NCBI RefSeq assembly: GCF_004339465.1
Contig: NZ_SMFY01000001.1
Coordinates: forward strand, 62,001-126,000
DNA length: 64,000 bases
Origin: Ancylobacter aquaticus
Lineage (GTDB): Bacteria; Pseudomonadota; Alphaproteobacteria; Rhizobiales; Xanthobacteraceae
Reading direction: 5' to 3'
Shown: positions 16,861 through 19,980 of the stretch, one piece after another
Layout of the letters: each line of letters opens with the position of its first letter
Position numbering within the stretch: position 1 is the stretch's first letter
Position numbers and translations under genes: made by a program
Notes under the pieces: generated by a model
What the model saw: only the letters and a program-made list of their open reading frames with translations
Told to the model about the DNA's origin: nothing
The model's database searches: none

Positions 16861-16930
16861 AGCACGCGCCGATCAGCTTGCAACGCAAGTTGATCGGATA
16901 ACGCGTTCTCTATCATAGAGTTAGAGGGCG
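16857..16930 (+). repeat. Mosaic intergenic palindromic repeat, copy 1
   Basis: The element begins CTAGAG, which includes the TAG stop of the HAD gene. A 13-bp hairpin follows: CCGATCAGCTTGC (16869-16881), loop AAC, GCAAGTTGATCGG (16885-16897), with one G-U pair. Then comes a second module, ACGCGTTCTC-N10-TTAGAGGGCG (16901-16930). Both modules recur at 39589-39666 in a different arrangement. It resembles the dispersed palindromic elements common in Hyphomicrobiales and may act as a transcript end. Confidence 0.75.
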
Positions 16931-17796: not shown

Positions 17797-19980
17797 CTAC
17801 CCCTCGATGCGGTCGAAATCGGCGATGGTGCGGGTGGCGGCGCGGATGTCGGCAAGCAGGCGCAGGCGGTTGACCCGCAGCGCCGGGTCGTCCGCGTTCA
17901 CCGTCACCTTCTCGAAGAAGGCGTCGACCGGGGCGCGAAGCCCGGCCAGCAGCGCCATGGCGGCCTCGAAATCCTCACGCGCCAGCGCCTGCTCGATCTG
18001 CGGGCCGAGCGCGGCGATGGATTCCGCCAGCGCGTGCTCCTCCGGCTCGTGCAGCAGCACTACATCGACGCCGCCCTCATAGGCGACGCCGTCCTTCTTC
18101 TCCTCGATGCGCAGGATATTCGCCGCGCGCTTGGTGCCGGCGAGCAGGTTCTTGCCGTCCTCGGTCGAGAGGAATCGCCCCAGCGCCTCGACCCGCTTCA
18201 CCACGAGCAGGAGGTCGTCCTGATCGGGGAGGGCGAAGACGGCATCGACGAGGTCGTGGCGGGCGCCGGCCTCGCGCAGGTGGACCTTCAGGCGGTCGGC
18301 GAAGAAGGAGAGCAGGTCGATAACGTCGACATCCGTTGCCCCCCAACCTTCGACAATTCTAGTAGCTCTTCCGCCGCCGACCGACCCGCCCGATGCTTTG
18401 GCGACCTCAAGAGTGGCTCTCGAAGACTGCTCCACGGCAACCTTCAAGACTGGCGCCAGTTTAAGGGGAAGAGAATTATCCAAACTGATCCGCACCACTC
18501 CGAGCGCCGCACGGCGTAGGGCATACGGATCTTTCGATCCCGTCGGCTTCTCGTCGATGGCCCAAAATCCGGCAAGCGTGTCGAGCTTGTCGGCCAGCGC
18601 CACGGCGACGGACACCGGCGCAGTGGGCACGCGGTCGGTCGGGCCCTGCGGCTTGTAGTGTTCTTCCGCGGCGGCGGCGATTTCCTCGGGCAGGCCCTCC
18701 AGCCGGGCATAGTACCGGCCCATCAGCCCTTGCACCTCGGGGAACTCGCCCACCACTTCGGTGCGCAGGTCGCTCTTGGCGTAGAGCGCGGCCTGCTCGG
18801 CCAGCTCCGGGTCGGCGCCGACGATGGGCGCGAGCGCCTTCGCCAGCGCGGCGATGCGCTTGATGCGCTCCAGCTGCGAGCCGAGCTTTTCGTGGAAGGT
18901 GACGTTGCCGAATTTTTCCAGCCGGTCTTCCAGCGGCACGGTGGCGTTGGTCTTCTGGTCGGTCTCCCAGAAGAATTTGGCGTCCGACAGCCGGGCGCGG
19001 ATGACGCGCTCGTTTCCGGCGATGATCTGCCGGCCGCCATCGCTGGCGGCAAGGTTCGACACCAGCACGAATTTGTTGGCGAGGCGCCCGGTGGCGGGGT
19101 CCCTCAAGACGAAGCATTTCTGGTTGATGCGGATGGTGGCGCGCACCACCTCGTCCGGCACGTCGAGAAAGGCCGGGTCGAACGACCCCATCAGCACCAC
19201 GGGCCATTCCACCAGCCCGGCGATCTCCTCGAGAAGGCCGGCATCCTCCACCAGCTCAAGACCCTGCGCCAAAGCGAGGTCCTTTGCGTCGGCGAGGATG
19301 ATGTCCTTGCGGCGCTCGCGGTCGACCACGACGAAGGCGGCTTCCAACTTGGCCATCCAGTCTTCCAGCCGGCGCACGCGGATCGTGCCCTCCGAAAGGA
19401 AGCGGTGGCCGCGCGTGGTGTCGCCCGAGCGGATGCCGTCGACCTCGAAGGCGACGATCTCCGGCTCCTCGGTCTCCGGGCCGAAGGTGCACAGGATCGA
19501 CTGCAGCGGCCGCACCCAGCGCAGCGTGGTCGGGCTGGTGGAGCCCTTGCCCCAGCGCATCGACTTCGGCCAGGGGAAGGCGCGGATCACGGCGGGCAGG
19601 ATCTCCGCGATCACCTCCGGCGTGGCGCGGCCATGCTTGTGCAGCCGCGCGATATAGAACTCGCCCTTCTTCGGGTCGCTCTCGATGCTGGCCTGCTCGA
19701 TGGAGGTGAGGCCGGCGGCTTTCAGGAAGCCGTCGATTGCGGGCTGCGGCGCGCCGACGCGCGGGCCCTTGCGTTCCTCATGGGTATCCGGCTGCTGGGC
19801 GGGCAGGCCGTGCACGGCCAGCGCCAGCCGGCGCGGGGTGACGAATGCCTTTGCCCCCTCATAGACCAGGCCGCGCTCGACCAGCGCATCGGTGACGAGC
19901 TTGCGCAGACTCTCCGCCGCGCCGGCCTGCATGCGGGCAGGAATTTCTTCGCAGAACAGTTCGAGCAGAAGATCAGGCAT
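17797..19980 (-). CDS. glyS: Glycyl-tRNA synthetase, beta subunit
   Basis: A 727-aa beta chain of the bacterial alpha2-beta2 glycyl-tRNA synthetase. It begins [18 protein letters not shown] and shows the family motifs TPRRLA, FPKSMRWG-like [19 protein letters not shown], and the HD-like and anticodon-binding C-terminal regions ([14 protein letters not shown]). glyQ lies upstream on the same strand across a 172-bp gap. A segment at about 18335-18560 has very different codon use (AGA three times, many codons ending in A or T) and encodes an extra Ser/Gly/Ala-rich loop near [16 protein letters not shown]. The reading frame stays open, so the gene should be functional. Confidence 0.93.

Follow-up and report, generated by a model that had tools for sequence, protein, structure and literature searches.

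The window, a stretch of 64,000 nucleotides from Ancylobacter aquaticus (contig NZ_SMFY01000001.1, positions 62,001 to 126,000), carries the genes for both subunits of glycyl-tRNA synthetase (GlyRS), and a patch of deviating codon usage lies within the gene of the beta subunit:

17797 to 19980, minus strand: glyS, glycyl-tRNA synthetase beta subunit, 727 amino acids, single copy, with the Pfam domains PF02092 and PF05746
20153 to 21097, minus strand: glyQ, alpha subunit, the control gene, with a length standard deviation of 0.5 and no GC3 drop exceeding 0.25 among its 21 copies
18322 to 18540, minus strand: low-GC3 patch of glyS, codons 481-553, with 33 of 73 codons ending on A or T

Residues 4-582 of the window GlyS matched PF02092 (1.2e-182), and the DALR anticodon-binding domain PF05746 was present (2.3e-07). 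The fold is that of the solved (alpha-beta)2 GlyRS (7yse_C, E 2.6e-42, TMq 0.67). Outside of these genes, a near-perfect inverted repeat, gatcagcttgcaacgcaagttgatc, was seen by eye at window positions 16871-16895, directly downstream of an ORF.

A first-pass annotation of the sequence had placed a low-GC, rare-codon patch in glyS at 18335-18560. The patch is real: 45 % of its codons end on A or T versus 64 of the 654 codons (10 %) of the remaining gene (Fisher P 8e-13), its GC content is 58 % versus 69 %, and its sliding GC3 values fall to 0.38-0.69, compared with mostly 0.8-1.0 elsewhere in the gene. The borders had to be shifted by 13-20 bases, with the fall of GC3 beginning at ~18540-18543 and ending at 18322. 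The codon AGA was correctly counted three times in the patch; it is absent from the 654 codons outside. The internal GC3 drop of glyS (0.35; 99th percentile 0.34) was the second largest in a set of 291 genes with 223 or more codons, drawn from twenty 20-kb stretches of this genome and from the window; it exceeds the usual variation of the genome. The remaining three of the top four drops lie at codons 40-54, close to the start of the ORF, where over-extension of the called start is a possible cause; large start-proximal drops in the same genome were noted at L162:2428-4368, L158:14497-15876 and L164:8218-9378. A search of the Ancylobacter genome for the patch sequence, proposed in the annotation, revealed no second copy (next match E 0.19).

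The patch comprises a variable and a conserved part of the protein:

18322 to 18456, minus strand: hypervariable insert, approximately residues 509-553, which 13 of the 30 Ancylobacter genomes lack
18457 to 18543, minus strand: conserved upstream flank, corresponding to loop H18-19 and helix H19 of the E. coli enzyme, carrying foreign third bases

The site is located in the HD domain of GlyRS-beta, between a tRNA-binding helix and the motif FFADRLKV, and the GlyS matches of many genus members stop at residue 508-514 and restart near 550-555. In the AlphaFold model of the window GlyS (mean pLDDT 88.7), the insert consists of a helix at 508-529 (pLDDT blocks of 82-93) and a weak second part at residues 531-550 with a pLDDT of ~60. 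The description of the patch as a Ser/Gly/Ala-rich loop holds for about 20-25 residues only; elsewhere it does not apply, residues 508-529 being predicted as helical. The insert of a second modelled protein (L132) had a pLDDT of 47-67, which limits any claim on folding. The beta subunit of the E. coli (alpha-beta)2 GlyRS (PDB 7YSE / 7EIV) is the same enzyme with the same fold. According to PMC9908026, its loop H18-19 and helix H19 grip the acceptor stem through Gly473, Asp474, Asp476, Arg481 and Arg482, and Arg531 likewise contacts the stem; PMC8464048 assigns residues 341-540 to the HD domain. By alignment, the variable site follows directly on loop H18-19 and helix H19, precedes Arg531 and lies within the HD domain. 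The E. coli protein differs in having 49 residues between both anchors (counted on the alignment) and no such module.

Within Ancylobacter, the span was measured from LRR to the residue preceding the D of FFADR. A short form of 33 residues was present in 13 of the 30 genomes, the other 17 had spans of 49-169 residues and thus 16-136 residues beyond the short form. The genus segments of at least 60 residues formed 13 families without detectable mutual similarity (phmmer E 1e-3), accompanied by one shorter insert; three of the Ancylobacter insert families were also found in other genera. Some genus counts refer to 29 rows instead of 30, as L014, whose protein is identical to that of L039, was removed as a duplicate. 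The orthologue alignment suggested in the first-pass annotation detected the loop of the window in none of the 29 genus orthologues read; together with the genome-wide GC3 comparison, this means that neither of the two refuting conditions named in the annotation held. On a tree of 33 rows, constructed for the 30 genus members and three outgroups from GlyS without the variable region, presence and absence of an insert required 9 changes; shuffled data had a mean of 10.5, and 106 of 500 shuffles were equally low. The presence of an insert therefore appears to lack a clear phylogenetic signal in these sequences. Seven of the nine terminal pairs of genus members differed in length class or family, and the spans of the window and its four nearest relatives on the tree were 73, 33, 99, 91 and 102 amino acids. 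The pair L028 and L038 differs at the site, with GlyS ~0.92-1.0 identical elsewhere. In the syntenic regions of 20 relatives, the standard deviation of length was 31.6 for glyS and did not exceed 6.2 for six other genes; GC3 fell by more than 0.25 in 13 of 21 glyS copies versus 3 of 103 copies of neighbour genes. This neighbour control started from 14 window ORFs, of which seven, among these xseA, were left out with 0-6 orthologues.

Beyond the view of the first-pass annotation, the site proved hypervariable across the order. A non-random sample of 130 GlyS rows (127 distinct, mostly from Hyphomicrobiales) was compiled from 50 of 99 matching genomes, including all 30 Ancylobacter, and the best 80 of 579 matches. 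The most length-variable stretch was that of residues 513-555 with a standard deviation of 29.7 amino acids, followed by a site with 6.7. Weaker length-variable sites of the window GlyS were located at 582-588 (inserts of up to 50 residues) and 292-300 (up to 43 residues), and the GlyS match of G464, G128 and G194 was also interrupted near residue 390. Among the 127 distinct proteins, 71 segments of at least 60 residues fell into 50 families (phmmer E 1e-3). Spans were 98, 111, 74, 98 and 98 residues in Microvirga, 34, 98 and 63 in Bosea, 73, 99, 55, 50, 44 and 47 in Methylobacterium, 83 and 133 in Xanthobacter, and 127 and 100 in Rhodopseudomonas. In Bradyrhizobium, one family of 49-55 amino acids was common to 13 of 18 records. 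For the other orders of the class, 29 loci were read of 120 matching genomes: the span was 45-56 residues in 22 and 62-97 in seven loci, and the core GC3 drop did not exceed 0.15 in 23 of the 29. Outside of the Alphaproteobacteria, where 11 of 58 were read, all 11 loci had a span of 52-66 amino acids and a core GC3 within 0.13 of the remaining gene. The ancestral state was probably a loop of some 50 residues, from which both the short form of 33 residues and the long modules would be derived.

Lowered GC3 was found in 16 of the 17 Ancylobacter inserts, and 14 of the 17 were lower than any window of equal length in the gene that carries them. Of the 127 distinct GlyS, 109 had a core of 15 or more codons; the GC3 of this core was lower than that of the remaining gene in 95 of the 109, and in 52 no other window of that length in the gene was as low. 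Among further loci compared, L238 (G175), with a span of 92 residues, presented the strongest contrast, with a core GC3 of 0.22 versus 0.86 in the remaining glyS. Long inserts had a median GC3 of 0.58 versus 0.88 in their hosts, without a significant correlation between insert and host (n=69, P 0.21). GC-rich exceptions exist: L035 had a GC3 of 0.93, the long inserts L089, L097, L110 and L132 exceeded 0.9, and several inserts outside of the genus were GC-rich. The codon pattern fits repeated import with slow amelioration and opposes a required slow-translation signal.

The synonymous positions next to the insert deviate from the genus in two places:

18313 to 18543, minus strand: putative imported tract, codons 480-556, with foreign third bases 5' of the insert, the insert itself being not comparable
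18565 to 18576, minus strand: codons 469-472 (CTT GCC GGA TTT), three of which deviate from the genus, the fourth being not comparable

In codons 480-504, only 8 of the 23 comparable codons agreed with the genus; at the other 15, the third base occurred in less than half of the genus members sharing the residue. Codons 464-479 had a minority third base at 3 of 15 comparable codons, and codons 469-472 are possibly, with uncertainty, a small second tract. Compared with three close relatives, the 25 codons 5' of the insert had a protein identity of 0.80-0.88 and a third-base agreement at identical residues of 0.25-0.50; farther upstream this agreement was 0.70-0.96. The 22 conserved codons 5' of the insert were barely closer to the genus than to other genera (median nucleotide identity 0.73 and 0.68), the segment just before had values of 0.87 and 0.75. 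This supports recombination, one of the origins considered in the first-pass annotation. Of 454 overlapping 22-codon windows of the upstream part, the six with the lowest scores (0.40-0.45; median of all 0.76) begin between -22 and -9 relative to the LRR anchor. Downstream of the insert, L556 alone is odd and agreement returns afterwards. The downstream flank is native-looking with an identity of 0.88 to the genus, within the background. Third-base agreement with the three relatives was nevertheless lower over about 50 codons of this flank, at 0.41-0.72 for codons 1-25 and 0.57-0.70 for codons 26-50, before it rose to 0.93-0.97. A flank ranked within the lowest 2 % of the background of its own gene in 6 of 17 insert-bearing genomes versus 2 of 13 without insert. 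Synonymous identity had no steady trend towards the site across the 435 genus pairs, thus the flank trace is visible in some genomes only, which presumably are recent imports. The composition of the patch, unlike the genome and second among the 291 genes, agrees with an imported allele. A convincing donor of the window module was not detected in 397 genomes of the order: at E 1, 195 of the 397 genomes matched, which is chance level, and the best match besides the window (E 0.005) had two internal stop codons.

Within families, inserts aligned with few or no gaps, and dN/dS was mostly 0 to 0.6 where dS was unsaturated; three distant pairs yielded 0.62, 0.80 and 0.94. For three alleles or families shared inside the genus, dS was 2.5 or saturated versus 0.39-0.50 in the gene core, rough values, as NG86 estimates of dS are biased under differing codon bias. 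A length of 92-102 amino acids was observed for 21 of the 50 families versus 10.4 expected from a lognormal distribution fitted to the same data (P 0.0006). A common ancestry of the families was not convincingly supported by hhalign for any of 325 pairs among 26 profiles or single sequences (best probability 28 %). For the 71 inserts, single weak matches were obtained with Pfam for one member in each of 11 families (best E 0.007) and with PHROGs for one member in each of 5 families (best E 0.015), none of them clear; the anti-phage models of PADLOC gave no match. An Rfam match indicating an RNA element was not obtained at E 0.1. An intein was rejected for the window insert, which had no Pfam family at E 0.05, hence no splicing domain, and with ~45 residues is below intein size.

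Searches for free-standing relatives of three module families, A2, A3 and A4, gave no convincing result. A2 had five weak matches in 397 genomes, two in glyS and three others with E 3.7e-4 to 0.009, and no known carrier is among the genomes listed, which limits the sensitivity that can be claimed for this search. A3 matched in 3 of 249 genomes, once in glyS (L225) and twice weakly. A4 matched in 0 of 249 genomes and, within the 30 genus genomes, in the two known glyS copies only. Viral contigs contained no relative of A2 or A3, the A3 scan being of little weight with its one pattern that lies in the glyS anchor, and the one insert tried against plasmids (DNA) and phages (protein), that of L033, had no match. 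An origin was visible for two glyS segments, L036:1999-2175 and L108:4579-4752, which contain in frame a dispersed repeat of ~85 bp (MAGLVPAIHAL...D.RDK.GHDG). This repeat has 68 matches per genome with both strands counted, often at the same places, so it is roughly palindromic. Accidental in-frame insertion is thus one real source of modules.

We attribute the patch with good confidence to a hypervariable site in the HD domain of GlyRS-beta of Hyphomicrobiales and the import of the window module into it. At this site, related species have either the short form or an in-frame module from a large set whose members are not detectably similar to each other. The third bases support homologous recombination as the route by which the window module arrived, the partner being a divergent allele of glyS from outside of the genus; crossovers in or near the conserved flanks would have left foreign codons in the upstream flank (tract ~18313-18543). 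The persistently low GC3 of the modules may result from a lack of recombination between unrelated alleles, so that only slow mutation would ameliorate them. Relaxed codon selection with AT-biased mutation in a fast-evolving loop would explain the low GC3 without import; the low GC3 of long inserts in most hosts and the milder drop in the 43-58 amino acid class (0.70 vs 0.84, n=38) agree with it. However, the drop spans the conserved flank, where the protein is nearly unchanged and the 15 atypical third bases were found, and most sister species carry segments without detectable similarity, so that this explanation is improbable. The first-pass annotation also listed a programmed slow-translation segment between domains, in which rare codons would be selected for ribosome pausing. 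Rare codons do cluster between two structural parts, and AGA occurs solely there. We consider this explanation hardly credible: the segment is missing in 13 of the 30 relatives, L035 has ordinary codon usage, the four long inserts named above are GC-rich, and the drop is small in most loci of the other orders and in all loci outside of the class. Very improbable is also a mobile or selfish in-frame element, e.g., a palindromic or REP-like repeat. Such an element is true for L036 and L108; in a loose sense, the annotated option of an inserted in-frame element also holds for the window, as its segment is absent from 13 of 30 genus members. Yet the window segment lacks direct repeats and a second copy and has one imperfect inverted repeat, the families are dissimilar by hhalign, and the few searches of viral contigs (A2, A3) and of plasmids and phages (L033) gave no match.

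The main rival for the function is a permissive surface loop with unselected content, which would tolerate any in-frame DNA that insertion or recombination brings in and in which this DNA would drift and disappear again. It is compatible with the import of the window module and competes for the functional step only. It has to be taken seriously, though we do not expect it to be correct. The short form in 13 of 30 genomes, families as dissimilar as the hhalign profiles indicate, the lack of a clear Pfam, PHROG or PADLOC match, and the repeats of L036 and L108, by which accidental insertions evidently happen and survive, are in its favor. On the other hand, dN/dS is mostly well below 1 and length is kept within families, although in an essential enzyme an insert could come under constraint simply by having to be harmless; three families recur across genera, and the loop stays at 52-66 amino acids in every locus outside of the Alphaproteobacteria. 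We lean towards diversifying selection over this permissive loop: the modules may be surface pieces kept diverse by selection, e.g., in avoiding or engaging a varying phage protein, toxin or inhibitor, a reading we hold plausible if somewhat short of probable. Its more specific form, a polymorphic recognition module beside the acceptor-stem grip that is swapped across genera and diversified by an arms race with a phage protein or competitor toxin, is conceivable, but rather unlikely.

Aminoacyl-tRNA synthetases are regarded as conservative housekeeping genes. A variable site in one of them would point to an unrecognised selective force on the charging of glycyl-tRNA or to a place that admits new protein sequence with unusual ease. 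Both ideas are testable in closely related pairs that differ at the site, such as L028 and L038. A description of the variable site was not found in the literature searched, which covered few subscription journals. PMC8711792 reports glyS SNPs for 4 out of 109 E. coli strains resistant to phage, and PMC8521149 describes, for Vibrio coevolved with phage, an indel located upstream of glyS; both are correlations only. They provide a lead outside of the order for the arms-race reading. For phylogenies, uncut glyS is a risky marker.

Several known systems resemble the site in part. In Rickettsia palindromic elements, extra sequence is inserted in frame in protein genes. The segments of L036 and L108 are similar to these, the window segment differs in not being a repeat. 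At recombination-driven polymorphic loci such as the O-antigen and hsd regions, numerous unrelated alleles occupy the same position, GC is low and foreign flanks are carried along. The glyS site is alike in its unrelated alleles, low GC and foreign flanks; in contrast to those loci, its variable part resides inside an essential housekeeping enzyme, and balancing selection is only a candidate, the genome collections used comprising one genome per species. A conserved signature indel in GlyS of the Xanthomonadales is described in PMC3568101 as a taxonomic marker. It is likewise an insert in GlyS beta, but comprises 2 amino acids and is common to a whole order.
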